A stretch of DNA of 64,000 nucleotides. Source: Microvelia longipes (Eukaryota; Arthropoda; Insecta; Hemiptera; Veliidae). The stretch spans positions 18,588,082-18,652,081 of the forward strand of contig JACMZG010001913.1 of assembly GCA_018340805.1 (NCBI GenBank). The letters are read 5' to 3'. The notes below the pieces were generated by a model, which saw only the letters and a program-made list of their open reading frames with translations, was not told where the DNA came from and ran no database searches. The position numbers and the translations under genes are program-made. Of this stretch, positions 6,030-63,866 are shown piece by piece (the first letter of the stretch is position 1; each line of letters begins with the position of its first letter).

Positions 6030-7720
6030 ACCTACAATTCGTAGTGCTGTGTACACAATCCCACATTCGTAATACTATGAACAAAAGCCCGCACTGTAAG
6101 CTTTATACACAACCCCACATTAGTAGTGCTGTGAACTCAATCCCAAACTTGTAGTGCTTTTGATACATACCCGCATTTGCGATGCTATAAACAAAAACCC
6201 GCATTGTGAGCTTTATTCACAAACCTCACTCGCTGTGCTCTGGACACAAATCCCACATTCGCGATACTATAAACAAATACCCTCACTCTGACCTTCATAC
6301 ACAAACCTCACTTGCAGTACTCTGGACACAAATCCCACATTCGCGATGCTATAAACAAATACCCTCACTCTGACCTTTATACACAAACTCACTCGCAGTG
6401 CTCTGGACACAAATCCCACATTCGCGATGCTATAAACAAAACCCTCACTCTGACCTTTATACACAAACCTCACTCGCAGTGCTTTGGGCACAAATCCCAC
6501 ATTCGCGATGCTATAAACAAATACCCTCACTCTGACCTTTATACACAAACCTCACTCGCAGTGCTATGGACACAAATCTCACATTCGCGATGCTATAAAC
6601 AAAAACCCTCTCTCTACCTTTATACACGAACCTCACTCGCAGTGCTCTGGACACAAATCCCACATTCGCGATGCTATAAACAAATACCCTCACTGTGACC
6701 TTTATACACAAATCTTACTCGCAGTGCTCTGGGCACAAATCCCACATTCGCGATGCTATAAACAAATACCCTCACTCTGACCTTCATACACAAACCTCAC
6801 TTGCAGTAATCTGGACACAAATCCCACATTCGCGATGCTATAAACAAATACCCTCACTCTGACCTTTATACACAAACTCACTCGCAGTGCTCTGGACACA
6901 AATCCCACATTCGCGATGCTATAAACAAAACCCCTCACTCTGACCTTTATACACAAACCTCACTCGCAGTGCTTTGGGCACAAATCCCACATTCGCGATG
7001 CTATAAACAAATACCCTCACTCTGACCTTCATACACAAACCTCACTTGCAGTAATCTGGACACAAATCCCACATTCGCGATGCTATAAACAAATACCCTC
7101 ACTCTGACCTTTATACACAAACTCACTCGCAGTGCTCTGGACACAAATCCCACATTCGCGATGCTACAATCAAAAACCCTCTCTCTGACCTTTATACACG
7201 AACCTCACTCGCAGTGCTCTGGACACAAATCCCACATTCGCGATGCTATAAACAAATACCCTCACTGTGACCTTTATACACAAATCTTACTCGCAGTGCT
7301 CTGGGCACAAATCCCACATTCGCGATGCTATAAACAAATACCCTTACTCTGACTTTTATACACAAACCTCACTCGCAGTGCTCTGGACACAAATCCCACA
7401 TTCGCGATGCTATAAACAAAAATCCTCACTCTGACCTTTATACACGAACCTCACTCGCAGTGCTCTGGACTAAAATCCCACATTCGCGATAATACAATCA
7501 AAAACCCTCACTCTGACCTTTATACACAAATCTCACTCGCAGTGCTTTGGACTCAAATCCCACATTCGCGATGCTATAAACAAAAACCTTCTCTCTGAAC
7601 TTTATACACAAACTCATTCGCAGTGCTCTAGACAGAAATCCCACATTCGCGATGCTTTGAACGAAAACCCTTACTCTGCGTTGTCGACACAAACTGATAA
7701 ACGTTGTGCTCTGAACACGA
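6030..7720. repeat. 82-bp tandem satellite, about 20 units, with higher-order structure
   Basis: The unit reads CTCACTCGCAGTGCTCTGGA-CACAAATCCCACATTCGCGA-TGCTATAAACAAATACCCTC-ACTCTGACCTTTATACACAA-AC. Units at the left edge (6030-6240) are diverged and those in the middle are nearly identical. Shared variants recur at regular distances: 'CTTGCAGTA(C/A)TCTGG' at about 6310, 6800 and 7043, that is six and three units apart. This indicates higher-order duplication. Because 82 is not a multiple of 3 and the unit lacks stops, long spurious frames appear on both strands. They are not genes. Confidence 0.92.
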
Positions 7721-46756: not shown

Positions 46757-47165
46757 TTATTCAGTCAAGTTTAAAGATCTTTTATTTCCTTTCATATTTT
46801 CTTTAATTATCCTTTTCATTGAATCATAGCGGCAACTAGGACATTTATCATATCCACATGTCAAATCATCATCATAAAAGTCGTAAACTCTATCATTATT
46901 TCTTCCATGTCTAGTTTAGTTAACTTGTTGACATTTTCCCCAATAATCATTCTGCGACCAATGTTTTGACTTCTCCTCAAAATCTGGAAAATATCTTTTT
47001 TAATATATCTCTTAGATAATCTAGAATTAAATTAAAAATATTAATATGAATATTAAATCTCACCAAACATGTTCATGTCATCCTCTTCCAAGTATTCTCT
47101 AAGTATTTCATCAGTAACAGGAATCCTTCTTTTAAATGATACATTTTGAATTTTTTGCAAAGACT
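46757..47165 (-). pseudogene. Hypothetical Polinton gene with a cysteine cluster, spliced
   Basis: On the minus strand a first exon (about 47,165-47,064; residues such as 'RRIPVTDEILREYLEEDD') is followed by a 43-bp candidate intron (47,021-47,063, GTGAG...TTCTAG). A second exon runs to a stop at 46,757-46,759 and contains 'PDFEEKSKHWSQNDYW' and 'TCGYDKCPSC' (C-x4-C-x2-C), then a basic tail. The cysteines suggest zinc binding. One stop and one frameshift interrupt it. The frame before the first ATG is also open back to the shared leader. I do not recognise the family. It may be a Polinton accessory or regulatory protein. Confidence 0.55.
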
Positions 47166-47187
47166 ACAAACAGTGAATTTAAACAAA
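47148..47187 (-). promoter_or_regulatory. Shared leader/acceptor element, copy 1
   Basis: Plus-strand 'AGACTACAAACAGTGAATTT' AAACAAA (47,161-47,187) recurs with one mismatch at 48,698-48,724. The similarity continues into the minus-strand gene start (AGTCTT...TTCAAAATG). It may be a promoter or initiator, or, since it ends ...CACTGTTTGTAG, a 3' splice site preceding the first coding exon. Confidence 0.65.
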
Positions 47188-47343
47188 ATCTATTTAAATC
47201 AATTAGAATGAATTAATTTTTATTATTAATTTTAATACATTTGAAAATAATTAAATTAATTAATTTTAAATAATTAGAATGTTCTAGAATAAACATTTGT
47301 TTTACTGTATCAATTTCAATATTAGTACACACACGTTTCAGAA

Positions 47344-47352
47344 TATATAAAA
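47344..47352 (+). promoter_or_regulatory. TATA box of the 47,387 gene
   Basis: TATATAAAA about 35 bp upstream of the first ATG, in a good position for an RNA polymerase II core promoter. Confidence 0.5.
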
Positions 47353-47386
47353 GCTATAATCTTTAGTTTTTATCATTAATTTTAGA

Positions 47387-47762
47387 ATGGCTCCATTGAA
47401 ATTAACCAAAGATAATGCTTCAACATTGATTTTTAATGTGATAAGCCAACTAACTATTACAAGTATGAAATAGTTAACTTTAAGAAATCTATCGTGTACA
47501 CCTTTCAAGTAATTTTCATATTTTATTTACTTTATTTAATAATTTTTATTTAGGATCCAGTAAATTTCAAACAATGTTTGTATGGTGTTTTGATTTCAAA
47601 ATAAGTGACAATGACCTGAAAACTATAAATGATTTCCTTGTTAGAGTCAACAGCGACATGGAAATAGAAGAATCAACATTTATTAAATCAAGAGATGAAG
47701 TTAAAATTGAAAAAGGAAAGATTACCGTTGAAATTATGGATACAAAAGACTTGAAGATCTAG
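47387..47762 (+). pseudogene. Hypothetical small Polinton gene, spliced
   Basis: ATG at 47,387 opens a frame of about 26 codons (starts MAPLKLTKDN). After a probable frameshift it is followed by a 45-bp candidate intron (47,509-47,553, GTAATT...TTTAG) and a second exon of about 65 codons ending at 47,762. The second part contains 'WCFDFKISDNDLKTIND' and is rich in Lys, Glu and Asp. A TATA box lies upstream. I know of no match. It could be a Polinton accessory protein. Confidence 0.5.
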
Positions 47763-48018
47763 TGAGACCACTTTGGAAAATCAAAACAATATCAAGAATT
47801 TTTCATGAATAAATATTATCATCCATAATTATTTTGTCTTAGTTACTCTTTTTATGGTATTTTGTTACTTTTTAGTTGTTATAAACTTTTTATAATAAAA
47901 AACACACAAGTATCAAACAAAGATTATTCAATTGAAACGTATTTGATGATCCAATGATTGTTCTGTATGACATTTGGCATCTAATAATAAATTAATTAAA
48001 TAGATTACATCAAATAAA

Positions 48019-48681
48019 TTACTTAGTTTCATGATTTCTTTCAATTTTACATTGATGTTGTTTTCTCAATGCAATTGAAAGAGCAATAGTTTCATATTCA
48101 TTTGAATCTGGTTAATTGTTTCTGGACTGGAATAACTCAAATCCTTATTGAATTCATTAATTAAATCTCTCCTTGTCATTCTCATAAAACTCATTTGTTA
48201 CAGTTGGCAAATTAAGTTTATGAAAATTTACCAGATTATCCATTAGAAAACTCATATTTTCCAACATATCCAAATTAAATTTGAGTTTTGGTTTACATTC
48301 AACTTTCTGAGAATAACCAAACTATCGAGGAATTGAATCTGAATAAGAGCATGAAGACCTGATTGAAGAGTTTCTTCTAATTTATGACGGTACAGTATTA
48401 TTTCATTGTTTGATATTTCCTCCATGGCATCGATGAATGGTTCAACATTAAACATATTTGCTAGATTGTTGGCCACATCAACTTTGCATTGTCGAGGTAA
48501 TCTTCATAGTTCAATGTCAAACAATTATTTACAGTTGAAATAATTTTCGGAACATTTGTACTTTATGCCCACTTCATGAAGAAATTGTGAATTCATCATC
48601 ATCAAATAACATTATCTCGATTGTATATTTCAATTTCCTTCAACATCTCTTTTTGTTTTCAGACATGATTACATCATCCAT
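48019..48681 (-). pseudogene. Hypothetical Polinton gene, acidic, probably helical, frameshifted
   Basis: ATG on the minus strand at 48,681 (MDDVIMSENKKR) follows directly after the second shared leader. Coding potential continues through several frames to a stop at 48,019. The longest uninterrupted piece (48,252-48,476) holds 'NVEPFIDAMEEISNNEI' and 'LYRHKLEETLQSGLHAL'. A later piece holds 'NKDLSYSSPETINQIQMN'. Reconstructed length would be about 215-220 residues. The composition suggests an alpha-helical protein. Not recognised. Confidence 0.5.
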
Positions 48682-48697
48682 TTTGAAAAGTTTACAA

Positions 48698-48724
48698 GAC
48701 TGCAAACAGTGAATTTAAACAAAT
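48698..48724 (-). promoter_or_regulatory. Shared leader/acceptor element, copy 2
   Basis: 'AGACTGCAAACAGTGAATTT' AAACAAA on the plus strand, 26 of 27 bases identical to 47,161-47,187 and in the same position relative to the start of a minus-strand gene. Confidence 0.65.
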
Positions 48725-48729
48725 TTAAT

Positions 48730-49169
48730 TAAATTGTTAATTAATTTAATTAAATCTTTTAATATAGAATCCACTAATGATTTATAATTTAATTTTTTTT
48801 CCAAACAAGTACGACTTTCCCACTTGAAAATAATTTAACCAATTGGATTATATTTAGAAATACGTAACCTTGGGAAAATTTTCTGGTTCAAAAGCAGCAT
48901 TTTATTGTTTTGGCAAAATTATATAAAAAAAACCGTGATTCCCAAACTCGACAACTTACCGATTGAAGCTGTATGTTTTCAATATTATACTTTAAATCTT
49001 TGTTATTCAATGGTCTTTTACAACCCATTATTCTACATTTTCCTGATTGAAAGAAAACAAAGTATGCTTTTACATTTTTCCACAACTTGAGATGGTTTCC
49101 CAATTGGAAATTTCAATGACGGATAACTGATTGATCGACTTTTCCTTTGTAATTAATATTTGCAATCAT
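48730..49169 (-). pseudogene. TATA-binding-protein-like gene of the Polinton
   Basis: ATG on the minus strand at 49,169. The first part contains 'FFQSGKCRIMGCK' (about 49,018-49,054), which matches the F-SSGK-TGAK signature of the first TBP repeat. About 70 residues further on, minus-strand segments give 'EPENFPK' (48,869-48,889), KYNPIG and 'FSSGKVVLV' (48,804-48,830). In TBP the second repeat has exactly this order: EPELFP, then a proline-containing strand, then F-SGKVVLTGAK. The whole would be about 140 residues, a TBP core (normally about 180) without the N-terminal tail, and slightly short. The pieces lie in different frames, so the copy is broken, or the sequence has indels. GTAAGT at 48,955-48,960 (reverse) might be a splice donor, but reading through it also keeps the frame. 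It shares a 60-bp divergent promoter with the ATPase. Family assignment is my inference from motif order. Confidence 0.6.
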
Positions 49170-49229
49170 TTTAAAACGAAAAATTTGAATATATATAAAC
49201 AATATTAATTAAATTGATACGATTAAACA
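49170..49229. promoter_or_regulatory. Divergent promoter between TBP-like gene and ATPase
   Basis: Only 60 bp separate the two ATGs. 'GAATATATATAAAC' at about 49,187-49,200 provides a TATA-type box on both strands. Confidence 0.5.
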
Positions 49230-49819
49230 ATGGAATTAAGAAATGACGCTGTTTATCAAATTGTTGGACCGAGTGGAAGTGGAAAAAACCTTGTTTGTGT
49301 GTAAATTATTAAAATCAAAGTTATTTCAAATCAAAATTCAATAAAATATATTGGCATAGAGGAGCAGATGAGGAACATGGATTAACTCAATCCAGAATTT
49401 TGCAACATAAAAATGAAAATTATAATGGATTTGATGATAATTGGAGCAAAGATTAAGTAAAGGTGATGTTATTGTTTGTGATGATTTGTATCAGGAAGCA
49501 AACAAAGAAAAAGATTTAACAATTTATTCACAAAAATATCAAGACATTGTGGTGGACTGTGATATTCATTACACAAAATCTTTTTCCATCAAGTGGTGAT
49601 CATAGAACCGTAATTAAATGTACAATACCTAGTTATATTCAAAAATCCAAGAGATATGACGTTGTTGATTTCTAGCAAGACAAGCATATCCAAACAATAG
49701 ACAATTTTACTTAGATTCATTCAAAGATGCTACAGAAAAACCACATGGATATTTTTCTAGAACTTTATCAACAGTGTCCTGATGATCTTAGAGTTAGAAC
49801 TGATATTTTCAATTTCTAA
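49230..49819 (+). pseudogene. Polinton packaging ATPase (FtsK/HerA type), frameshifted
   Basis: The Walker A loop 'GPSGSGK' is at 49,266-49,286. An extra A in the following A-run shifts the frame after it. Walker B is 'VIVCDDL' with Asp-Asp at 49,480-49,485. A polar sensor segment 'ITQNLFPSSGDHRT' (about 49,568-49,610) and the conserved stretches 'FKNPRD' and 'ARQAYPN' follow. The C-terminus 'CPDDLRVRTDIFNF' ends at TAA 49,819. Length about 195 residues, near the usual 200-250. The family is thought to pump DNA into capsids. At least four frameshifts make it non-functional as written. Confidence 0.88.
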
Positions 49820-49866
49820 TGGAACAACAGTGTATAAACAAATAATAAGTATTGACTATTTTACAA

Positions 49867-50483
49867 ATGGCGAAATTTACTAAAGTTATTGTAGATCCTC
49901 AAAGTATCAATCCAATGTTGAACAAAACGGAATGATATCAAATCAATAAGAAATCTATCAAGAATCAATCAAGAGTACAATAAAAGAAACAATAAAGAAA
50001 GACAATAAAAAGAACAATCAAAGAAACAAATCAAGAAACAATCAAAAAGTCAATTAAAGTTTGATAATCTGATTGAGAAGATTGAAAAGAAAAATGAAAA
50101 TCAACAAAGAAGAATCCAAGACTACCGAAAAAGAACATTAAAGAAATGTTGAGCTATAAACATCTATTAAATTTATTAAATAATATTATGTCATATAAAA
50201 GAGTCTTCCGTTTTTTAATGCATTACTCAAGACCCAAAAGGTCGAGAGTTAGATTGTTACAATCATTTCCCAAGTTTGTTATTGATGATTTGATTGAAAT
50301 TATTGTGAATGTTGTTCGTGGTAATCTAGATTTAAATAAAGCTAAAAAGCAAACATTACTCAAACAAGAGATCGTTGTTGTCACTTGTAAAATACTAAAA
50401 ATAGAGATAATGAGACATGTAATATAATAAACAAAGTGGTGGTTCTAGGAGCATTAATACCAATTGTATTATCATATTATTGA
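49867..50483 (+). pseudogene. Polinton small basic protein with a hydrophobic C-terminus
   Basis: ATG at 49,867 (MAKFTKVIVDPQSI), then Lys/Gln/Asn-rich sequence with disrupted frame. From 50,146 a clean frame holds 'HYSRPKRSRVRLLQSFPK' and 'IIVNVVRGNLDLNKAKK'. A final shift leads to the hydrophobic end 'VVVLGALIPIVLSYY' at 50,481. A short protein with RVRLL..., a 'GN' motif, and a Gly-Ala-Leu hydrophobic tail next to the integrase is a recurrent Polinton gene. By analogy with adenovirus it may be a membrane-active or core protein, which is inference. Confidence 0.6.
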
Positions 50484-50551
50484 ATTTTCTATAAACTGAA
50501 AATTTAGGAGCATTATCAAGATTTTACATAAAATTCATATCAAATTGTGTA

Positions 50552-51579
50552 ATGGACAAAATGAAGAATATTTGGACAGACCCGAATCACCCAGCAGGGT
50601 TCAAAGGAGCGGAAAGTTGTGGAAAGAGAACAAAAAACTCAAAAAGCGAGACGAAAAAGTGGTTATCGAACAGTTAGCATACAGTCTGAACAAACCAATG
50701 TTGAAAAGATTTCCAACAAGACAGTATAAAAACTTTGGTATTGATGATTTATGGCAAATGGATTTAATGGAAATGATTCCATATTCGAGAATTAATAAAG
50801 GTTACAAGTATATTTTAACATGTTGATATATTTAGTCGATTTGCAAGAGTTGTCCAGTAAAATCCAAATCAGCAAGTGATATGGAAGCTGCAATCAAGTA
50901 ATGTTTAAAGATGGACATCCAGATAATTTGCAAACGATTTGGGTAAAGAATTCTACAATTCAAAAGTCAAAAGTGTCATTAATCACCTTGGAATTAATCA
51001 TTATTCAGTATTTTCACAGTATAAAGCAGCACATGTTGAAAGATTTAATCGAACATTGAGAGATGCAATGAAAAAGTACTTGTGTATACTGGAAATAAAA
51101 ACATGGATTACAGTTTTACCGAAACTAATTGATAGTTATAATCATACAGGTCACAAAGGAATAAATGGAGCAAGACCAGTTGATGTTTCATCTGATAATT
51201 CAATAAAGTTATGGTTAAGTAAACAACAAACAGGTCCAATCAAGAAACCAAAATATAAAGTTGGTGATCATGTAAGAATATCAAAGATATCAGCTTCTCC
51301 ATTCATCAAGAATTTCAATAGTAATTGGAGTGATGAAGTGTATCAAATATCGAAAATCAATATTAAGCAGAATCCAATCATGTATGTGATTAAAGATCAT
51401 GAAGATAATATCATTGCTGGAAAGTTTTATGAGCAGAATTACAAGTTATTGATCCACCAACAGTATTTAGAATAGAAAGAATTATAAAGTCAAAGGGTGT
51501 TGGTAAATATAAACAATTATATGTAAAGTGGCATGGTTATGAAAAACCTACTTGGATATCAGCATCTCAATTAGTATGA
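50552..51579 (+). pseudogene. Polinton integrase (retroviral-type, DDE, with chromodomain)
   Basis: ATG at 50,552. The N-terminal part ('DPNHPAGFKGAE' in one frame, 'YSLNKPMLKRFPTR' in the next) precedes the catalytic core. The first Asp is in 'DLWQMDLMEM' (50,761-50,763), the second Asp at 50,936-50,938 just before 'LGKEFYNSKV', and the Glu at 51,038-51,040 in 'AAHVERFNRTLRDAM'. About 33 residues separate the last two. After an SH3-like stretch ('YKVGDHVRISKI') a C-terminal chromodomain is visible ('QLYVKWHGYEKPTWI', about 51,520-51,560). This chromodomain is a known Polinton feature thought to guide target choice. The stop TGA (51,577-51,579) overlaps the next ATG. Frameshifts near 50,600, 50,825, 50,870, 50,932 and 51,440. 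Confidence 0.93.
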
Positions 51580-52603
51580 AGAATAATTTCTACACAGTTT
51601 TACCGAGCAATAGTTGCCACTTATTCATCCGAATAATAAAGCTAGTAATTTCATTGTCGATTTTGAAAATCCCATTATTTAGATGATCAGTGGGAAGTGG
51701 CGTTGATGGATTTCACCTTTATATATGACGCATTTCCAATCTATAGTAATGCAACTATTGAATTGTAACAGGAGCAACAGTAACGAAGGGATATGTAATT
51801 TTTATTCATAACAAAGAAAAAAGATTGTTTTGTAATGATGACATATCAGATAATAGGTGATAGTATATGGATGGTAAAGTTGAAATATGTTGAAAATGAT
51901 ATTGAATTTCAAAATATTGAAGATGCGAAAAATTTGGATATAATCAATTACAAAATTGATGCTGATGGTGGTCAAATATTTGAATATAAAAATAATTATA
52001 AAAATGATGAAACTGTGGAAACAGTGACTGTAAAATATAAGTATTCATTAGAAAATAAAGTTATTTTATTTTCATGAATGATTTATACATGAAAACCTAG
52101 AAGAATTTAGTGATTACATAACAAATAGATTGCATAGTATATTCAAAACTTTTACTTTAAATAAAAATGAAGTATTTCAATTTTCATTAGAAACACATAT
52201 TAGAAGTGTTACCTTGACAAATTACTAGTTAAAACATTAGGATTAGGTCAAGATACGTATACTCAAAGTAATCTTAACATTCAAGATGATGATTACATAT
52301 TCAAAGGAGTAAGAAAACCAAAACTATTCCTAATCCAAATCAAATGTTCATCTATAGTAATATTGTTGACCCTATTTATTGTAGGAATGTTAATGTTCCT
52401 CTCTTGAAATCTTATATGGTTGGACTCGTATGAAGATGATCAAGTAGTTCAAATAATTATCAAGAACCCAATGTATCTACCAGTATCTACATCTGTATAA
52501 ACAATATAGAAATCAATATACGCGATGACGTTGGAGAATTAATTAAATTTGCTCAAGACTCAAAACGCATTTAACATTACATTTTAGAAAAATAAATGTC
52601 TAA
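51576..52603 (+). pseudogene. Polinton minor capsid (penton-like) protein
   Basis: Starts at ATG 51,576 inside the integrase stop (ATGA overlap). N-terminal 'FYTVLPSNS' and 'WEVALMDFTF' match the usual penton start (YVTLPSN...GEWEVAL). The middle holds a clean 80-codon frame (51,835-52,077). Then 'FIYSNIVDPIYCRNVNVPLL' (about 52,346-52,405) and 'NNIEINIRDDVGELIKF' (about 52,500-52,550) correspond to the conserved 'Y-DIV-P--VG---PLL' and 'IEI-IRDD-G--V-F' blocks. It ends 'LTLHFRKINV' at TAA 52,603. Single-jelly-roll pentons cap the vertices of Polinton virions. Several frameshifts. Confidence 0.85.
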
Positions 52604-53000
52604 TCCAGATATTATTTCACTATATAGTACCAGTCAAGCGGTGGAGAATTACCATATTTTGTAGGAAAACAGTATGGTTCGGTTGGTTGCAAACAATTGG
52701 TAGATTTGCTTTACCTATTCTTAGACGTATTGGATTAATTGGAATGAAAACTGCTCAGGATGTAATATCAAATAATGCAAAAGTATTGCCAACATTGAAA
52801 TCAAACGCGTTATCTGAAATCAAGGATTTCATGTCATCAGATGAATTCTCAAAAATGATGCCAAAGAATACAAAGAATGAACAAATCTTAATGGTAACGG
52901 TTTTGTTCCAAAACATAATGGTTTAAAGCTTAATAGATAAAAACGTAATGGAATTAAACGTATTGGAACAAAACGTAAAGGTTCTATTTTTCAAGTATAA
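52596..53000 (+). pseudogene. Polinton small virion protein with Gly-rich start and basic tail
   Basis: ATG 52,596 overlaps the end of the penton gene by 8 bp. It contains 'GGELPYFVGKQYGS' followed by an amphipathic stretch 'WLQTIGRFALPILRRIG' and 'TAQDVISNN', and ends in the Lys/Arg-rich 'KRIGTKRKGSIFQV' at 53,000. This layout (GG-PYF-G-QYG-G, hydrophobic helix, KR-rich tail) recurs between the two capsid genes of Polintons and resembles adenovirus minor core or membrane-lytic peptides. Function is inferred from position. Two or three frameshifts. Confidence 0.7.
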
Positions 53001-53008
53001 ACAAACAA

Positions 53009-54265
53009 ATGAAAGGATATGGAACTATATTTGAAAAATGATTTGTGGAAAAACCGAATTATGTATTTTCGACCGTCCATCACCTCAAGGTGTTATTGAA
53101 TATGGTTCATTTGAAGACGTATATCCAACCAATGGTATAACAAGTAATACGTCAGAAATAGAATTTAATATAAATGGATCACAAACTGAATATTTGGATT
53201 TGAATGATACTCTATTGTATGTTAAAATAAAAGTAACTGATAAGATTGGAAAAGATTTGGCAGAAAAGATGATGTGATACCAAACAACTACATGTTTCAT
53301 TCACTATTTAGTGACGCTGTTCTTGCTTTGAATAAATTTAAAGTTGAAGGTGGAAATGATAAATATATTCAGAATCAATAATTGAAACTGTTTTGAATTA
53401 TAATGGAGATACCAAGAAAATATGTCTTAGTGCAATGGGATATGTGGTGAAACTTATAGAAGAGAATGCATCAGTAGATCACAACCATGGGCACTTTGTG
53501 GATCTTTACAACTAGATTTTTTGGATCAACCAAAATATCTCATTCCAGGTGTTAGTGTTCAGATTAAATTGAAAAAAGTCACAGTCTACCATGTGTTTGT
53601 ATTCTCTAAATGAAACAACCATCGGTAGAATTATTGGAGGCAAAATTGATGGTTAGACGAGTACGAGTTGAACCTTCTGTATTAGCTGGGCATCAACTTG
53701 GATTTAAACAAACAAAATGCTATTTATCCAATAAGAAACAGGGATATTGTAGCTTTCGGTATTGGTAAAGACAGTTTATCGTTTTATAAAGAGCAAATCT
53801 TTGGTGATCAACGAATGCCCAACTTCTTGTTGGTAACATTTCAAACCGGAGATCAATTTACTGGAACATTATAATTCATTAAGCACAAACTTTGAACACT
53901 TTAATGTAAAATCAATAACATTATCGAAAAACACAGATTTCAGAGAAACATATACTCAAGATTTTCTCAATAATAATTACAGCACATCGTATATGCAATC
54001 AATAGTTAGAAATATGGGATATCTAAACAAATATGAATTGTGGAATAACACTTGATGATTTTAAGAACAAGTATCCATTCTTTACATTTGTACTTGCTCC
54101 AGATTTCGATATTAATCAGCCAATTACCACAACAGGGTAATTTGAAATTAGATATTCAGTTTTCAACTAAAATTGAATGTTCCGGCATATGTAATAATAT
54201 ATGGAGTATTTGAAAAAGAAATCCAAATAAAAGCAAATCGAACTGTACTAGTTTTAATCTATTAA
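53009..54265 (+). pseudogene. Polinton major capsid protein (double jelly-roll; F54H12.2-like)
   Basis: ATG 53,009, 9 bp after the previous stop. The clean segment 53,038-53,277 includes 'SEIEFNINGSQTEYLDLND' followed by TLLYVKIKV. This matches the hallmark 'PIEF-V-GSG-DYLDL-NT-LYVK-K-' of the transposon-derived F54H12.2-like capsid family. Later segments: 'SQPWALCGSLQLDFLDQP', 'LIPGVSVQIKLKKS', 'VRRVRVEPSVLAGHQLG', 'KEQIFGDQRMPNFLLVTF', 'NKYPFFTFVLAPDFDINQP' and 'YVIIYGVFEKEIQIKANR', ending at TAA 54,265. Expected length about 410-430 residues. About ten frameshifts. Confidence 0.9.
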
Positions 54266-54309
54266 ACATTTCTGGTTAAACAATCTCATGTCATGGAAAC
54301 TTAAGCAAA

Positions 54310-54691
54310 ATGAAGTAAGTTTTATTAATTAAATTAATTTATTTAATTAGTTCAATTCAGATAAATCAAATCGGAAAAAAGTGGCTTGGAAACAGATTGG
54401 TTGGGGGTGTTTCCACTAGATAAAATTCCATACATACCAGAAAATAAAGCCTTAATAGTCAATACTCAATCATCGAATCTAGGAGGAGAACATTGGATTG
54501 CAGTTTACAATAAACCGACAAAAATAATGGCATTTGATCCATTCGGATTTTATTATCCATCATTACTGGTTACGTATCTATCAACATTATCAAAACCTAT
54601 CGAGTACAACAAAATTCAATATCAACAATGGTTTACAACAACTTGTGGTCAACATTGCCTGTTATGGTTGAAAAAACAACATGACGGCTGA
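54310..54691 (+). pseudogene. Polinton cysteine protease (adenain/Ulp1-like, C5/C48 clan)
   Basis: The catalytic triad is present in order: His in 'GGEHWIAVY' (54,491-54,493), Asp in 'AFDPFGFY' (54,536-54,538), and Cys in 'TTTCGQHCLLWL' (54,644-54,646) with Gln upstream. This type of protease matures virion proteins and is related to adenovirus protease and SUMO proteases. The start is probably ATG 54,310 followed by a 36-bp mini-intron (54,315-54,350, GTAAGT...TTAG). That gives the typical 'MNSIQI' opening before 'GVFPLDKIPYIP'. A frameshift lies near 54,405. The C-terminal part after the active-site Cys is cut short by a stop at 54,691. Confidence 0.9.
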
Positions 54692-55020
54692 AAATTTGTA
54701 TTGAATAAATTTTAGTATAAAAACATGTGTTTTCTTATTTAATTCTCGTGTTATCCTAATGGAACGAGTATTTTAATTTATTATTCACACGATAGAATTT
54801 AGAAATTTACTTTGAGATTTATACTTGGAGATTTGAGATCAAGGTAATAAATTAATATTCAGAAATTTAAATTAATTAATTAAATTATTATTGAAATAAT
54901 AAAATATTTACTTTTGTTTTAACGTTCCAATTATTCAAAATAGACTGCCATTTTTTGCCACAATTTAAATAATAAGAAATCGGTAAGGTATTTTTTAATT
55001 TAAAATTTAATTTCTTTTAT

Positions 55021-55300
55021 TTAGATTTAAATACTAAAAAATGAATAACAATAACAATAAAAAACAATTATTTGGATATGAATATGAATCAAGTAAATTT
55101 AGTTTTTAAAATTTTTGTTTATTTAATATTTAGGAAATAAATTCCTTATAAAATCCGTTATTGTCGAAAATGAATGCTCCAATTATTGTTCCAAAAATCA
55201 ATAAAATGCTCTATGTTAATTTCCAATTCCTGTTGCAAATCAACACATGAATGTTTCAATCCTTATTACAATCAAGATATATATGCTTTTAAAAATCAGG
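55021..55300 (+). pseudogene. Possible small spliced gene, unidentified
   Basis: ATG 55,041 (Asn/Lys-rich start, 'KKQLFGYEYES'), a 41-bp candidate intron (55,093-55,133, GTAAAT...TTTAG), then 'FLIKSVIVENECSNYC'. Near the end, 'STHECFNPYYNQDIYAF' is followed by GTAGG, a possible donor at about 55,300. Cysteines (C-x3-C and others) may bind zinc. It could be the 5' part of the gene continuing at 56,222. Weak case. Confidence 0.3.
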
Positions 55301-55504
55301 TAGGATTATTGATTTTATTTTTATTTTTATCATGAAATTTCAATTATTATTTAAATAATGTAATTTTTCATGTAATTTTTCCCCATGACATTAATGTTAA
55401 CCTTAGTGCACTGAGCTCTGAATCGAAGCTCTAAACTCAGAACTGAAGCTCTGAACTCAGAACTCGAAGCTTACTCAGTACTCTAAGATTACATAATTGT
55501 TTCT

Positions 55505-56060
55505 CGATGAAATTTTTTCCAATTATCATGATTATTTTGTTATTATCATTTTATTATTTATTATTATTATTATTTTATTTTATTATTATATTATTATTTT
55601 ATTATCATATTATTTTATTATTATTATCATTTTTTTATTATTATTAATTATTATTATTTATTATTTTTATTATATTATTATTATTATCATATTATTATTA
55701 TTATTATTATTATTACTATTATTATTATATTATTATTATTTTTATTATTTTATTAATATTATCATCATCATCATTGTTATTACTTCAATAAATTTAAATT
55801 TTTGCATTTCATGTAAACAATTAATTTAAACAAAAATTTTAATGCATTATCAGTAAAAAATTAATTAAATTTAATTTCATTCAAATTAAATGTAAAGTAT
55901 TTTTTAATTATTTAAATATCAAGTAATATTATATTATTATAATTATTAATATTATTATTATTACTATTTATTATTAATATTATTTTACTTTCTAAACCTA
56001 TTATTATTTTATTATTATTATTATTATATTATTATTATTATTATTATCATTTTTAGTATT
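55505..56060. repeat. (TTA)n-rich simple sequence
   Basis: Long runs of ATT/TTA and TTTATTA, with related patches to 56,060. The 110-codon Ile/Leu/Tyr frame is an artefact. Confidence 0.9.
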
Positions 56061-56221
56061 ATTGTCATAGAGGAACAATATTTTAATTAATTATTTTAAT
56101 TATTTTATCATGATTTAAATTTATTTATCATTTATTTTTCATCAATACTTTTATTACTTTTATTGACACTTTTATCATTTTTATAAGATTTAATAAGGTT
56201 AACATACATATTTTTATAGAA

Positions 56222-57060
56222 ATATGCCAATTTATCCAGCATATTGCACTAGTGCACAACATGATGCTTTCTGCCATGAGAATATGGAGAAATATTATGG
56301 TCATGTTTACTGGTCAAAAATATTATATATGTCCTACATGCAACACAATAGGATTAAGTACATATCAATCATTTTATAAAGGCATGCACACCATTTAAAT
56401 TTATTTACAATAAATAAGAAAAAATTATTATTAAATATTCTTAAAAAATCTGAAATATTCAATCTCCTCCTTCTAAGAAATTTAAATCTGAAGTTGTGGT
56501 TTTAAGTGATGATGATGAGATCAAACTTGAACCGGAGGTTACTGTTCCACTTGTTGCTCCAATTGTTTGTCCGGTTGTTGATCTGGCTGTTAATACAGTA
56601 TGTGATCCAACTGTTGATGGTATTTCTAGGTTAATAGGTTCTCTGAAATAGGTGATGAAGATGAGGTTCTTTTTAAATTTATAGATGAAAATGTACAAGT
56701 TGGTGGATCAATGATGAATCTATTGTTGAAACTGACTTGTATAAATGCCATCAAATATTAAAATTAGATGTTGCGAAATATAATATGACCGAAATTGTTT
56801 TGCCGGAATTCTTTGAAAAGAAAACTACATAAATTATAGCAGAAATGAAAAATGTGAAAATACAGTTCGGCATTCATGTTGAATTTAAAAAAGAGATGAA
56901 ATTAAGTCTTGCGAATTTCAAATAGCGCAGTTAAACTTAGTGATAATTTTTTTCGATGAGGGGATTAAAAAGTTGAATGAAAAAATAGTTGTTAGAAGCG
57001 AACTTGGAAGTAGCTGGGTTCTAAATAGGATATTAGAGATTAACTTTAAATTAACTAAAA
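56222..57060 (+). pseudogene. N-terminal extension of the Polinton polymerase, or a separate upstream gene
   Basis: ATG 56,222 opens 'YCTSAQHDAFCHENM' and then, after a shift, 'YICPTCNTIGL', a Cys/His set that looks zinc-binding. From about 56,464 the frame reads 'PPSKKFKSEVVVLSDDDEI' then KLEPEV. A nuclear-localisation-like basic patch (PSKKFK) is directly followed by a hydrophobic-acidic motif (VVVLSDDDE) and a psi-K-x-E site (IKLE). Later broken pieces include 'AKYNMTEIVLPEFFEKK' and 'NVKIQFGIHVEFKKEM'. Polinton polymerases often have long, variable N-termini. Whether this is one protein with the polymerase cannot be settled because of the frameshifts. Confidence 0.5.
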
Positions 57061-59365
57061 TTAGTGAAATCTGTCGTTATCGGAAGTAGTTATATCCCAA
57101 CACCTTTAAATCTTGCGAAAAAGCATGCTATTGTCAATGTTAAAAACAAAGACAACAAATGTTTCCTGTATAGTATTCTTGCTAAACTTAAAGAAAATAT
57201 TGTTAGAGTTAATAAAAGAGCGGGTATCACAATATAAAGATTTCTTACCTGGTCTCAAATTTGATGAGAGTGACTTTCCAATGAAGTTGTGTAACATCCC
57301 AAAGTTTGAAAAGAATAATCCTAACTTATCCATTAACGTCTTGTCTTGGAATTCGGTTTCGGTTGAGGATGAGGAAGAGGGTGACATTACTATGAAGCAT
57401 CCGAATGTTGATATTATTCATAGGAGTAAGGTTGTTGATGGGAAAAAATCTACTTGTTATTGCTTGAAGAAGGTGATAAATTCCACTATACTGCTGTCCC
57501 AAATTTGAATAGGTTGTTGAATAGAATATAGGAAATGGAAGTACACGCATTCGATCAAAATGGTGTCATAAATGTTTGAATGGTTTCAGGAATAACATTG
57601 CTTTGGATGCTCATGTAGCTGTTTGCGATAAGATCCAAACAACTACTTTATAAGATGCCTACTAATAAGGAATTAGTGTTTTCTGACTTTTCAAAGACGG
57701 TAACTCCACCTTTTGTTGTTTACGCTGATTTCGAATCAGTTTTAGAAAGGGATCCAATTCACTTATAAAGCATGTTCCAATTTCTGCTGGACTTTTATTG
57801 GTGAATAATTTTACTAATGAAGTAAAGTATCATCAATTTATAGGATACGAATGTATTGTTGAATTTTTATTAATGATTGAAACTATTACAAAAACTATTG
57901 TGCTACCATATTAATGAAAATAGTAAACATCAAATAATTATTACTTCTGCTGAGGAACATCAATTTAAACATTCTTCTGTTTGCTATCTTTGTAAGAAAT
58001 CCATTAAGAATCCTGTTAGAGACCATGATCACTTCACTGGGAAGTACTTGGGAGCTTCTTGTTCGATGTAACTTGAGTAGAAAAATCCGGTATGAATTAC
58101 CAGTTGTATTCATAATCTTCGTGGTTATGATTTACATCATATTTTGAAATACGGTCTTGATAAGTTTTCTTCTTGGGAAATTTCTTGCATTCCTACTTCA
58201 AGCGAAAAATTTTATGTTTAATTGCACGTATTTCAAAAGTAACAGTAAAATTTATTGACAGTCTACAATTTATTAATTCTTCTCTTGCTAATGCTGTTAA
58301 GACCATAAGTTCTACTCCTTTAACTTCAACAGAGTTTAATGATGATAGGATTGTTAAATCTAAGGGGATTTTCCCTTATGAATTCGCTTCAAGTTTACAA
58401 ATATTAGAGGAAACATATGAATTACCACCAAAATGGGGTGATGTTTCAGATGAATCTTATAATAAAGCTATTGAAATGTGGGAAATTACCGGGTGCGTTA
58501 ACTTGCTTGACTATATGATGATATATCTAAAACTCGATGTTTTCTTGTTGGCTGATTTCTTTCAGCAATTCCGTGCTAAATCCATTGCTCATAACAGACT
58601 CGAACCTTTGAATTTCTTTGGAATTCCCGGTATGTCATGGGCTTCTGCATTGATGACTTTGACTGATCCTATTGAGCTTTTGACTGACAATGACATGTAC
58701 ACTTTCTTTGAAGGTGGAATTCGAGGAGGTCTTACTTTTGTTAATAAACACCATGTTGTTTCTGATAAGGATACTGACTTGTTGTATATTGATTAATAAT
58801 CTTTACGGATGGCTCTTAGCCAGAAACTTCCATATAAGGATTTTGAGTGGGTTCATAGTGGATTGGATAATATTTTGAATGAATGTATGACTTTGGACTT
58901 GGAATCTCTTTCTTATGGTTATTGTGTTGAAGTTGATATTGAAATTCCGTCTGATCGCCATGATTACTTGAATGATTTGCCTGTTGCTGCTGAACACCAT
59001 TGTCCTCCAGAATCGAAAGTTAAGAAATTACTCTTAACTCATCACACTAAATATAATTACGTATTGCATTGGAGATTGTTGCAATTATTTTTGCAATTAG
59101 TGTAAATATCTTGAAAATTCATAGAGCTGTGAAATTCGGACAAGATTCAATATTTAAACAATATATTGATGAAAATACGAATCTTAGATCGCAGAGTACT
59201 AATGAATTAGATAAAAATTACTTTAAACTCTTGAACAACAGTCTTTACGGGAAATCTGTTGAAAATCTTAAAGAAACGTTTGAATTTGAGACTTTGGAAC
59301 TCTGCTAAAAACTGGTTACTGTATCTTCCAAAACCAGGATTCGTAAATCTATTAAAATTCAAATG
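57061..59365 (+). pseudogene. Protein-primed family B DNA polymerase of the Polinton, truncated after motif B
   Basis: Order of conserved pieces: 'YIPTPLNLAKKHAIVNVKN' then NKCFLYSILA (57,092-57,185); 'MKLCNIPKFEKNN'; exonuclease motif I 'VYADFESVLE' (57,718-57,747); zinc-binding 'CYLCKKSIKNPVRDHDHF' (about 57,985-58,035); 'FIDSLQFINSSLANAV' (58,254-58,301); 'KGIFPYEFASS'; 'YLKLDVFLLADFFQQFR'; 'MYTFFEGGIRGGLTF'; palm motif A around 'NNLYG' (58,797-58,811) with its preceding Asp one frameshift away; motif B 'YFKLLNNSLYGKSVEN' (59,219-59,266). The reading continues to about 59,360 and stops. The metal-binding motif C (DTDS) and the C-terminus are absent: a retrotransposon begins here and no polymerase sequence follows it. 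Non-functional. Confidence 0.92.
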
Positions 59366-60705
59366 ATTTGAATAGCAGTAAATGATTCTACGAGACTGGT
59401 ATAAAGCCATTGATGATAAGAAGATCATTATATGCCTGTTGTTAGATTTAAAGCGTGCATTTGAAACTGTGAATAGGAAAATTTTGTTACAAAAGCTGTG
59501 GGAGTATGGTATCAGAGGTGTGGTTTATGAGTGGTTTGTTAGTTACCTGAGTGATCGTAGACAGAGTCTACATAAATAAAAAATTATCAAAAGAAGTTAG
59601 CTGTGATATTGGGGTGCCTCAGGGCAGTGTTTTAGGTCCAATTTTATTCTTAATTTATATTAATGATGTTGTTAATTGTGTTAATATGTTGGGTGTGCAT
59701 GTTAGATTGTATGCAGACGATTCGTTAGTTTATGTTATTGGATGTGATGCAGTAAGTCTCATTAGGGCGGTAAATTTAGTTTTAGAAAGTATTTATTTAT
59801 GGTTATGTGTAAATAGATTAAAGTTGAATGTTAAGAAAACTAAGTGGATGTGTTTAGGCAGTAAGTTTTTCTGTGATAAAGTTATAGCTAGTAAGTTTAG
59901 TGTTAAGTTGAACTGTGATATTATAGATAGAGTTGATGAGTACAAGTACCTTGGTGTAGTTATAGATAAGAATCTTAGCTTTAATAGTTATGTAGATTAT
60001 TGTTGTAGAAAGATAGGTTCTAGGGTTGGTTTTTTGTTTCGATGTTCAAAATTTTTAAGTTCTCCTACCAAAGAATTAGTTTATAAGACTATTATAATGC
60101 CATATTATATTTATTGCAGTTCTGTGATATTTGGTATAAGTAAGCAAAATGTAAATAGATTACAAATTCTGCAGAATAAAGCTATGAGATGTATTTTAAG
60201 AAGACCGTTTAGGTCAAGCACTGAAAAATGTTAAAGGATTTAAATTGGTTAGATGTGAAGTACACAGTGAAATTTTATTCATTTGTATTTGTATATAAGC
60301 TTGTAAATAATTTGTTACCTAGTTATTTTAATGATGTTATTAGTCTTAAGGAGGATAGAAACCCTTATAATGTTCGCAGTAAAAATGAAATAGATACTCC
60401 GAGGGTAAACTCTGCATTATTACAGTCGACTGTTTTTATAAATGGAATTAGAGAATTTAATTGTTTGCCTGAGAATATTAAAAAAGAACAAAATATTAAA
60501 AGCTTTAAAAAGTTGTTGTATAGTCATTTAAGTAGTACTATGTTAACAGACTAGAAAGTAAGTTCCTTTTTAAGTTTTATTGTACTTTAGATTTACTAGT
60601 AGCTTTTTAAGCTAGTTATTATCATTATCATTATCACTATTAATACCTTGTTTTGATGATTGTAAAATGAGTTATGGAGTTTCAAAATAGGGAAAAAATA
60701 AAGAT
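59366..60705 (+). pseudogene. 5'-truncated non-LTR retrotransposon (Jockey/CR1/L2-like reverse transcriptase)
   Basis: Three long plus-strand frames (59,382-59,579; 59,551-60,234; 60,228-60,554) join across two single-base shifts into the C-terminal two-thirds of a reverse transcriptase. Visible are 'LLLDLKRAFETVNRKILL', 'GVPQGSVLGPILFLIYIND', catalytic 'LYADDS' (YADD at 59,710-59,721), 'WLCVNRLKLNVKKTKWM', 'EYKYLGVVIDKNL' and the thumb and C-terminal part ending at TAG 60,552-60,554. A 3' region with TTATCATTATCATTATCACT and AATAAAGATG ends near 60,705. The endonuclease and ORF1 are missing. It is much less damaged than the adjacent Polinton, so it is probably younger. Confidence 0.9.
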
Positions 60706-60718
60706 GTCACTTCACTTG

Positions 60719-60912
60719 GTATATATTTAATTGACAGAGCCAACTTTCAAATTTAATTTAATTAAGTTTGCTTTAATTTTGTATCTACTTATTTAGTGTA
60801 TTTATTATATTTTTGTTTTGAAGCTATTTATGTTTATTTGGTTTTTTACTTTATTGGTAGAAACTGTTAATGAACTAAGTTTGAAAGTCGGCTCTGTCAA
60901 TAAATATTTACT
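60719..60912. mobile_element. Small MITE (about 190 bp)
   Basis: 'ATTGACAGAGCCAACTTTCA' AA at 60,730-60,751 is mirrored by 'TTTGAAAGTCGGCTCTGTCA' AT at 60,880-60,901, with flanking TATATATTTA / TAAATATTTA extending the inverted repeat to about 35 bp. The interior is AT-rich and non-coding. It lies between the retrotransposon and the host exon. Confidence 0.75.
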
Positions 60913-60992
60913 GAGAGGAGAAACATTTTTCTTTTTTTCCCTACCTTGTTTTGAGTTTTGTCACCCTTTACACTTCATACTATTTATTCTAG

Positions 60993-61129
60993 CATTGTAA
61001 TGTGCCGCCTTATGGAGGAAGTTATGGTAAAAACGATGTAAATAATGTTGATACTATGTATAGAATTTTAGCTGACCATTCAAGAATGATAGCTGTTTCT
61101 TTATCTGACTACATCCTTCCAGATTACAG
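60993..61129 (+). CDS. AARS2: Mitochondrial alanine-tRNA ligase, internal exon
   Basis: After a 3' splice site (TTTATTCTAG) a frame runs to a donor (TTACAG|GTTTGA). It contains 'NVPPYGGSYGKNDVNNVD' then TMYRILADHSRMIAVSLSDY and ends PDY. This matches the tRNA-recognition segment after the catalytic core of alanyl-tRNA synthetases ('PPY-G-VG--D---DTAYR--ADH-R----SDG--P'). The lack of the bacterial/cytosolic 'GRGYVLRR' continuation and the form 'PDY-SH-SLRRV' across the next junction fit the mitochondrial enzyme of insects. The enzyme charges mitochondrial tRNA-Ala. The exon ends in phase 2 and joins in frame to 62,336. No upstream exon was found in the window. Confidence 0.82.
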
Positions 61130-62335
61130 GTTTGAATTATTTTCTTTTACTTTGGATATTTTCAAAATAAGCAAAGATTTAATTACTACCCCAAAGATCT
61201 TACACTTTCATTTTAATTTATTGAATTACTACATTAATGCAAATGTATTATATTAATAAATACAGTCATACCACCTTATTAAGAACTTCTGTACAATGAA
61301 AATACTCTTTCTGAGGTTTAAATAAAAACAAATATATTTCATGTCCTCTCCAATATACTATTGAAAAATGTTTCTATAACATCTGTCCTGTAAACTTTCT
61401 ATGAATTGATAAAAGCTGTGTTTGTTCTTTTATAAACTACTGGTACTATTTTTATTGATTCTTCATATATCTTATATTTTCCATGAAACTGGGATTAACA
61501 TTACATGGAAGAAAATTAATAAATAATCTTTTACTTTTTATTTAGGCTTTGGCCTGTTCAGTCCATAGGTAGTAGTAAGAGTGGGGAGGTAAAGCCTGGT
61601 GAGTAGACCACACCTTTGGGTCCTTTTCACCTCAAGTCCATTGGTAAAACATTTACCTACTGAAAATCACCTAAACTCAAAGTCCAAAGCCATCTAAGGA
61701 ATCTATTTTTGCTGCAATAAATACTCTGAGGCAAAGTTTGTCGTCAGAAGACAATGTTCCAGTAGATTTGTTAATTTACCTTAGTAAGTGCAACAATTAA
61801 TTTGAATAAATCATAAACAAATATTTGGCAAGGGCAAATACAGAGGTTTTTTAAATATTACTGTTTTCTAAAAATTTTATTGTAAGTTATTTTTTATTAA
61901 TATGTATAATTTTTTATTCAACATTTCATTATTATTTTTTCTGTACGTACGATTACAGCATTCATTATTAAACTAAACAATTCCGAGTTTGTTATTCAAA
62001 AATATTTATTCCTTTTACCAATTAACAAAATTACTTTGGTTTGTAATTCCATATAAAAAAATGTCTCTATTGCAAATTTTTTTTGTGCAGAACCCTTAAG
62101 TTCATTGTTTGGAGGTTCAACCTTATATTATATTAATTACATGATGTAATTAATATTAGGTAATAATGATTAAATGTATGTAACATAAAATTTAAAAAAT
62201 ATAAATTCCAACTTTTGAAACCTATTTATTATTATTGCATTGGTTATTATTTTATTCTGCAATTTGTTATTATTCTGCAATTTATTGTCTTCATTATTTT
62301 GCATTAGTATAATTTATTTTTCTTTATAATTTTAG
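61130..62335 (+). other. Intron of the alanine-tRNA ligase gene
   Basis: GT at 61,130 to AG at 62,334-62,335, about 1.2 kb, AT-rich. A more balanced block at about 61,545-61,690 (AGGCTTTGGCCTGTTCAGTC ... CTCAAAGTCCAAAGCCATCT) has loosely inverted ends and may be a decayed MITE. Confidence 0.7.
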
Positions 62336-62485
62336 TCACAGTCTCAGAAGAGTTATACGTAAATCCCTATTGGTTGCAAATTCACTTTCTCCAGACTCAG
62401 GCTTACCATTTTGCTTGAAGTTGTTAACAGTGCTTCAGAGAGTCTTAAAGATCATTTTCCTGATATTTATTCAAATATAGACCAG
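62336..62485 (+). CDS. AARS2: Mitochondrial alanine-tRNA ligase, next internal exon, with a frameshift
   Basis: Begins after TTTTAG and completes the split codon (AG|T = Ser), then HSLRRVIRKSLLVANSL, equivalent to 'LRR-LRKAL' of the family. The correct frame then shifts within about 62,385-62,410 and continues 'ILLEVVNSASESLKDHFPD' to YSNIDQ before the donor CAG|GTACTG. The expected family sequence here is a helical stretch with 'L----V-----LGD-YPEL', so both frames fit. The one-base shift in an otherwise conserved exon is either an assembly error or a sign of a pseudogene. The following exons are not in the window, or not recognisable. Confidence 0.75.
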
Positions 62486-63425
62486 GTACTGTGGCTATCA
62501 ATTTTATTTGTTATTTATAAATTACAAGTTGATTGCACCAGATTTTACTTCTGATATATCACCTTCTGTTAATTAATCTTTTTTTTAATTTCTAACTTTA
62601 TAGTCAACTATTTTAATAAAATGTTAAAAAATTAAATTTATTATAATAAGAGAAACTGCACAAAATATTTGTTTATCTTTTGTGGAGAGATAATCCTAAT
62701 TGTAAATGTATAATTTATTTGTATTTCATTTGTAAGTAAAGATTATTTTAAAAAAATGGAGGAATATACCAGCATTACCATACAAACTGCAAAATATCAG
62801 GGCTTCAATTAATTATTCTAGAAGACTGTATCTAGTACAGCAACTTCTGGAAGAAACATAACCTTCCTTCAGACATCAGAGGAGTTTTACAACACTACCT
62901 CTGAATAACCTTTGGAATTTGATCTGTGAATCCAAATTGGATGAAGAACATTTAATTTTATTGTAATTAATTTAAAAAACTGAATTTAGACAAAAGTATT
63001 CGACATCAGTGACTTTGTCATAAAATCACAACTCAGGGTTGAAACGTTGTCCCAAAACCTTCTTGAAACTTGAAACAAGTTTGATTTGGCTTTTGACTCA
63101 AAATAGTCTATTAAATATTAGTCCCTTTTGATTTATAAATTTAGATAGGCCGTGACAATGTACTTGAAGTAAACATGTCATTATTCTCTACTAGAATGCA
63201 CCGAGAGCTAACCAAGATAAGTTAGAGAATCATTTTTGATCAAGAAAAAGTGTTAATAAAAGCAGGATTTTAAACATCATCTAGTTTTACAAAAATTAAA
63301 TTAAAATCAGTTAGAAAACAAGGAAATAGTTTATAATATTTTTTTTCTCTTTAAATTAAAAAAAAATGATTTCTTGTTGTTCTAAAGCTATTCAACTCAT
63401 TACATGACATACTTAGTAAGTCAAT
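62486..63425. other. Probable intron sequence, no exon recognised
   Basis: AT-rich. A patch at 62,815-63,110 (AGACTGTATCTAGTACAGCA, ATCACAACTCAGGGTTGAAA CGTTGTCCC) has the look of a dispersed-repeat 3' end but gives no protein similarity. Confidence 0.45.
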
Positions 63426-63866
63426 CAAAGAGACTAATACTTAGAGGGAAAACTTAGGTAGAATAAAATAGGAGTCTGGAAGTGTGATAGTGTCTGTTAG
63501 GTACCATAACGGTACTTACTCCTATAAGAGCCTCACTAGAGAGAGACTAGGGATTTACAACCCCTATCTAAGCACATATTTATAACGTCCCCTTACAAAA
63601 CAGGCATTTTTCAGTGGCGTCACATTAAATCACATTATACAACACAGATATTTAAAGAATATTTGCAATAAATAGTTATTTTACTTAATTTTAGATAGAG
63701 ACAATTTTAGACTATATACAAAATAATCAAAAAATAATGTTATATCTACGTGAAACTAATTATGAAAAATGATACAGTTATAGTCACTAATGTACAGTTA
63801 TAGTACCAAGATACTCAGAGAATGATAAGAGCTGTAGTATCCTCCCTCTTAGTATTAGTCTCTTTG
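63426..63866. mobile_element. MITE with 23-bp terminal inverted repeats (441 bp)
   Basis: 'CAAAGAGACTAATACTTAGA' GGGA at 63,426-63,449 is mirrored by 'TCCCTCTTAGTATTAGTCTC' TTTG at 63,843-63,866 (one indel). No coding capacity. No clear target duplication. Confidence 0.78.

Follow-up and report, generated by a model that had tools for sequence, protein, structure and literature searches.

A TATA-binding protein gene carried by a Polinton lineage of Microvelia longipes, and a promoter box of its own element on which it may act

A decayed Polinton (Maverick) occupies 48-59 kb of a 64,000-nucleotide stretch of the Microvelia longipes genome (G000:C564:18,588,082-18,652,081), referred to below as the window, and carries a broken gene for a TATA-binding protein (TBP). 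The gene recurs beside Polinton genes elsewhere in the same assembly (664.6 Mb, 1,470 contigs), and a nine-letter box, TATAAACAA, precedes other genes of these elements and is missing before the TBP gene itself. We propose, with a probability of about 0.65, that a virus-type TBP of this Polinton lineage acts on the TATAAACAA promoters of its own element.

The initial annotation placed a TBP-like gene at 48730..49169 on the basis of four peptides, all of which were found on the minus strand, spread over three frames: FFQSGKCRIMGCK and FSSGKVVLV share one frame, and EPENFPK and KYNPIG each lie in one of the two others. The coordinates proved good, and the C-terminal helix LNYKSLVDSILKDLIKLINNLI runs on in another frame to about 48,715. 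An intact relative of 146 amino acids (aa; L005:1303-1740) matches window positions 49,166-48,795 in one frame with E=3.8e-12 and 33% identity (tblastn), the second-best place in the whole window reaching only E=0.21. A whole-genome search with another relative, L016 (147 aa), finds C564:18,636,873-18,637,250, i.e., window 48,792-49,169, with E=1.0e-18 and 42% identity, in an alignment that crosses two in-frame TGA codons. These matches substantiate the TBP likeness and rule out a chance motif as the source of the peptides. The window copy, which was assigned by tblastn only, is dead, with two in-frame stops and frame changes. Its divergence from the packaging ATPase across 60 bp was read correctly, the start codons lying at 49,169 and 49,230.

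A Pfam TBP search of the genome gave 24 matches, seven in three loci resembling cellular TBP or TBP-related genes and 17 elsewhere. Host TBP matches are split over separate exons, and the intact Polinton TBP genes are single open frames. Besides the host gene at C707:19533597-19535258, a second, diverged TBP-like host gene lies at C629:26923059-26925290. When 10 kb was taken around each of the 17 non-cellular matches, protein pieces of the window Polinton matched near TBP in 12 stretches, not counting the open reading frame (ORF) that adjoins TBP. A thirteenth (L021) showed only that ORF in the protein-piece test, yet the ATPase stands beside its TBP; in the other four (L012, L018, L019, L022) no Polinton piece was found near TBP. 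One of these, at L012:6817-9729, holds five tandem units of about 707 bp, each of which contains a stretch similar to the C-terminus of the Polinton TBP.

Used as a query against the genome, the L016 protein had 73 matches that fall into 47 TBP loci when merged within 1 kb on the same strand (45 if within 10 kb), and 137 ATPase matches were merged by hand into 66 loci. An ATPase lies within 15 kb of 28 of the 47 TBP loci, against about 0.3% expected, with 19 having none in reach; at 24 loci it lies within 1.5 kb, and all 24 of these pairs are divergent. The gene thus recurs in other Polintons. Exon pieces of host TBP/TRF gave no significant match to the window TBP segment (E of at least 0.46), and the gene belongs to the element rather than to a captured host fragment, as had been supposed. 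In subfamily B (the window, L013-L016, L020, L021, L023-L025) TBP is divergent to the ATPase; subfamily A comprises L009-L011, L017 and L019, and in its copy L011 about 7 kb separate the ATPase from TBP, which lies downstream and is divergent to another small gene. The 37 ATPase loci without a TBP match within 15 kb include tandem arrays or close relatives as well as a distinct Polinton family. ATPase copies of the TBP-Polinton type stand in tandem about 4.2-4.8 kb apart, four at C976:350-14743 and five at C630:4183-22558 (genome G000), as arrays built from part of the element.

Comparison of the TBP-ATPase spacers revealed TTGTTTATA/TATAAACAA in most of them. The nine letters of TATAAACAA, which are fixed by the search itself while the flanks vary, occur 60 times in the 17 stretches around TBP loci (152,540 bases), where a first-order Markov model gives 12.5 (standard deviation 3.3, maximum 20 in 30 simulations). 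An ATG opening an ORF of at least 40 aa lies 15-45 nt downstream of 25 of 65 boxes (38%; the 17 stretches plus window 48-62 kb), compared with 4.7% for random positions, for which the range was 20-45 nt, i.e., different by 5 nt. In a test to which no motif was supplied, TATAAACAA again came out among the top 9-mers upstream of ORF starts, in 10 of 90 windows versus 0.78. By class, the box stands 20-60 nt before the start of the ATPase in 9/10 cases, of the next gene, G2, in 5/5, of the ORF upstream of the integrase in 8/9 (32-44 nt before the ATG in relatives), and of the putative capsid protein in 6/6; with L033 added, these four classes have it before 30 of 32 starts, at 31-45 nt. The window copy keeps it before the ATPase, G2 and the putative capsid gene. 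None of 16 TBP starts has the box within 110 nt in the gene's own direction, and one (L014) has TATAAACAT. Gene XF has it in one of four copies, at 75 nt, and the one clear B-type polymerase start (L026) shows TATATATAAATA but not the box; in type A, a short first exon may link the polymerase to a box. Polymerase start-pattern hits in L016 (minus) and L030 (plus) are not polymerase starts and were disregarded. The expectation of TATA-type boxes before the element's genes was therefore upheld and sharpened to one box, missing before TBP itself. In the type A copies L011, L017 and L019 the divergent neighbour's box lies, reversed, directly before TBP, and therefore self-regulation of TBP is possible. 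A satellite at window 6186-7575, unrelated to the element, carries the 9-mer every 82 bp or so and inflates raw box counts for the window.

A TBP-less Polinton family of this genome (L028, L029, L031, L032) served as the control. Its ATPase pieces are 33-43% identical to the L016 ATPase, and integrase, protease and putative capsid pieces were matched in L029. The box is absent from its 33,999 bases, compared with 66 copies in 158,540 bases around TBP loci (L030 included); 14 would be expected at the TBP-locus rate and about 3 at the Markov rate. L033, chosen as a TBP-less ATPase locus, proved to be of type A, its ATPase pieces being 59-67% identical, and did not count towards the control. L027, chosen for an intact polymerase, matched just one polymerase-region piece, weakly, without any further Polinton gene, and was taken out of the control count; it has one box in 9,920 bases.

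All three intact TBP copies scanned pass the Pfam TBP model (PF00352), with 71.9, 54.9 and 41.1 bits against a cut-off of 22.9. Five copies were taken as ORFs of 137-150 aa (L015 with a changed C-terminus), and the ratio of nonsynonymous to synonymous substitution (dN/dS) is 0.17-0.37 in all ten pairs; the TBP has thus been under purifying selection while the elements were active. The fold predicted for an intact relative is the two-lobed TBP saddle, as anticipated. Helices are predicted in the C-lobe, at 83-89 and 131-145, and no helix of four or more residues in the N-lobe, which leaves the modelled helices behind one lobe rather than both. A profile of the five copies found 785 proteins at E<=0.01 in a large protein collection, environmental relatives that are known as proteins only; the 120 listed all have a TBP domain and 107-224 aa, nine being named TBP by the source. 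Viral contigs were scanned with two alignments of TBP and one of the ATPase, by a search that hinges on short exact peptide patterns, and no relatives turned up. Four sequences from this genome and 46 of the 120 were aligned, and these 50 sequences share an invariant pattern. Three of the four places of intercalating phenylalanines, assigned by reading of the alignment, are invariant in 50/50, the fourth being phenylalanine in 7/50. The TFIIB-contact glutamates of the C-lobe stirrup are kept (E95 in 49/50, E97 in 50/50), and the N-lobe, which has diverged too far for a phylogeny, shows a CR(I/V)MGC pattern.

These features suggest a private promoter system, in which a stripped TBP with a changed N-lobe would read TATAAACAA, recruit host TFIIB and RNA polymerase II, and bypass TFIID, TFIIA, Mot1 and NC2, with its own gene on a host-type promoter as the trigger. 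We hold this fuller scheme tentatively, at a little under even odds. In the main reading, the TBP gene, which has no box, would be made from another promoter, perhaps a host-type TATA, and would be expressed before the genes that it serves. The protein would then bind TATAAACAA 31-45 nt before the starts of the ATPase, G2, pre-integrase and putative capsid genes, and its phenylalanines would bend the minor groove. The intact EPE stirrup would recruit host TFIIB and thereby host RNA polymerase II to the element's promoters; no RNA polymerase gene was seen in the element, and no search was aimed at one. TFIIA, Mot1 and NC2 act partly on the N-lobe helices of TBP, and an N-lobe without helices may let the Polinton protein escape these regulators of host TBP. 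A private promoter factor appears to be the best reading because the DNA- and TFIIB-facing residues are kept and the shared box is absent before the TBP gene. Such a factor would let the element direct its own transcription.

Several observations weigh against this interpretation. The start peptide patterns were written after seeing the copies, related copies do not provide independent promoters, and the four control stretches are one family and so amount to one independent comparison; L033 has eight boxes although TBP is not matched within 15 kb of it. Boxes also occur inside coding sequence, 66-96 nt ahead of the next ORF; two in the window, at 51,508 and 52,496, lie in apparent coding sequence, and their counterparts in relatives are at that distance. 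TATAWAW is found before TBP starts in 7 of 16 cases and before ATPase starts in 5 of 10, and a host-type TATA for the TBP gene is weakly supported. A clean division into early and late genes was considered and is not claimed, because one type A box, at L030:3187 (minus), might be that of the polymerase gene. DNA binding could be weakened or changed, since one of the four phenylalanine positions is variable and a serine (S70) replaces the C-lobe asparagine. Finally, host TBP might itself recognise TATAAACAA, given the likeness of the box to an ordinary TATA box.

On that last point rests the alternative that host TBP reads TATAAACAA and the Polinton TBP ties up TFIIB or occupies host promoters, damping host transcription during element replication. 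The TATAAA core kept in the box agrees with this, and the kept TFIIB motif means that the Polinton TBP could compete; unexplained would be why the exact 9-mer recurs with TBP and is absent from the TBP-less family, and why the TBP gene itself has no box. We judge this alternative unlikely. Less credible still is that the TBP fold has been reused for a general DNA-bending or architectural protein in replication, packaging or integration, the box being that of an unrelated regulator. TBP-like folds have other roles elsewhere, and the packaging ATPase adjoins the gene at 24 of 47 loci, but the protein retains the TFIIB stirrup as well as three DNA-facing phenylalanines, and a packaging protein would not need the EPE motif.

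We give very little weight to TATAAACAA as the late promoter signal of a helper virus on which these Polintons would depend, much as virophages do on giant viruses, and from which the TBP would have been acquired. We know of no helper virus for animal Polintons. Large DNA viruses do encode TBPs (PMC10132985, PMC11410667), but those in the structure library differ from the Polinton TBP: the best match has E 3.7e-8, and identity is 10-19% over the 18 rows with E<=1e-3. A host TBP retrocopy that landed in the element by chance would account for single open frames where host TBP lies in separate exons; it is rejected, with hardly any probability left to it, by the contrast between the host exon pieces (E of at least 0.46) and the Polinton relative (3.8e-12), and by recurrence at 47 loci, 24 of them divergent to the ATPase.

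Features of the Polinton in the window
Feature	Positions	Strand	Remarks
ORF next to TBP	48252..48503	-	same strand as TBP; matched beside TBP in L009, L010, L011, L021 (both subfamilies)
TBP-like gene, broken	48715..49169	-	2 in-frame TGA and further frame changes; homology core 48792-49169
Divergent spacer	49170..49229	.	60 bp between TBP and ATPase start codons
TATAAACAA box	49194..49202	+	36 nt before ATPase start codon
Packaging ATPase	49230..49860 (end approximate)	+	Pox_A32 type, judged from an intact relative; interrupted by stops and frame changes
TATAAACAA box	49833..49841	+	34 nt before ATG at 49867 of next gene, G2
ORF upstream of integrase	50098..50427	+	no exact box before the window copy
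Retroviral-type integrase pieces	50500..51475	+	rve in relative L016
TATAAACAA box	52996..53004	+	42 nt before ATG of putative major capsid protein
Putative major capsid protein piece	53035..53277	+	label based on position and likeness; Pfam gave no hit
Adenovirus-type cysteine protease	54365..54691	+	Peptidase_C5, PF00770, 6e-6; Pfam match in window
Family B DNA polymerase piece	58164..58796	+	DNA_pol_B_2, PF03175, 1.5e-9; Pfam match in window

The window and L016 combined provide the Polinton genes for a family B polymerase, an rve integrase, an adenovirus-type protease and an A32-type ATPase. Integrase and ATPase were identified via L016 (PF00665, 1.7e-12; PF04665, 2e-6), the window integrase alone giving only rve_3 at E 0.048. 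The capsid label is putative, given by position and likeness, and the identity could not be confirmed: Pfam gave no match for the window piece, neither Pfam nor PHROGs matched the relatives, and none of the candidate's ten environmental relatives has an informative name. The ORF adjoining TBP is a possible partner of it; neither its window piece nor the relative L011:5347-5751 matched Pfam. Terminal inverted repeats of at least 28 nt were not found in window 46,800-63,800 of this decayed copy. Elsewhere in the genome, pairs of opposite-facing polymerase B matches lie 7-8 kb apart (C558:14198503/14206502, C646:9583/17617, C1361:35694155/35702139, C510:45766520/45774073, C565:15423209/15430978), as if the polymerase sat in both arms of some elements.

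A literature search for Polinton or Maverick with TBP, TATA, TFIID or promoter motif found no report of a Polinton TBP among the titles and abstract openings listed, which does not prove priority, and no account of how Polintons switch on their genes in animal cells. Term searches met no passage reporting a Polinton TBP in PMC10675990, PMC10132985, PMC11071308, PMC11071296, PMC12220804, PMC11410667, PMC4642659, PMC8097293, PMC11464507 and PMC12085832, and the terms TATA, TBP and transcription factor are absent from the Polinton texts PMC11071308, PMC4642659 and PMC8097293. A TBP with a matching box offers a direct and cheap test of Polinton gene activation, and the finding would add Polintons to the viruses carrying their own TBP. 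As a natural TBP that has lost the helices of one lobe, the protein may be useful for asking which TBP surfaces transcription needs, and the box may help in locating the genes, and live copies, of such elements in raw genome sequence.

The window and related elements share the polymerase, integrase, protease and ATPase with known Polintons and adintoviruses. A viral TBP is not new, because CpV-BQ1, mirusviruses and seven families of large double-stranded DNA viruses already carry TBPs; what the literature search did not turn up is a Polinton TBP with a TATAAACAA box. Mirusviruses have TBP in 59% of genomes, against 0% of Nucleocytoviricota in that paper's gene clusters (PMC10132985). The seven families come from a structure survey, three known before and four added, and the word polinton is absent from its available text (PMC11410667). 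African swine fever virus (ASFV) B263R, mimivirus relatives, mirusviruses and CpV-BQ1 resemble the present case as viruses with their own TBP and gave weak fold matches in the viral library, with low structural identity to the Polinton TBP. Chionoecetes opilio bacilliform virus, which we take to be a crab nudivirus, has a 'putative TATA-box bind protein' (BFVD A0A1Q3DLH5) with a weak fold match (TM 0.39, E 0.029). ASFV is described as bringing its own RNA polymerase. The closest in logic is CpV-BQ1 (Chrysochromulina parva virus), an algal virus described as being without RNA polymerase II and encoding a TBP and two TFIIBs (PMC12085832), the latter unlike the Polinton.

A scheme of the kind proposed here exists, because ORF24 of Kaposi's sarcoma-associated herpesvirus replaces TBP at late promoters with TATTWAA boxes, and does so without the TFIIB glutamates, which are important in TBP (PMC12529657; ORF24 also PMC13345323). 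The Polinton protein resembles such herpesvirus late-gene TBP mimics in pairing a virus-encoded TBP-like domain with a changed TATA box on a set of promoters. ORF24, however, has further domains, among them an extra DNA-binding C-terminal domain, and works in a complex of six viral factors, whereas the Polinton protein consists of a TBP domain alone and retains the glutamates. With cellular and archaeal TBPs (PF00352; M. jannaschii 2z8u, human 1cdw) it shares the predicted full-length two-lobed saddle, the C-lobe sequence, the SGK strand motif and the EPE stirrup, and it differs from them in the 137-150 aa of its intact copies, an N-lobe predicted without helices and bearing CR(I/V)MGC, one varying N-lobe phenylalanine place, and a serine at the C-lobe asparagine place.
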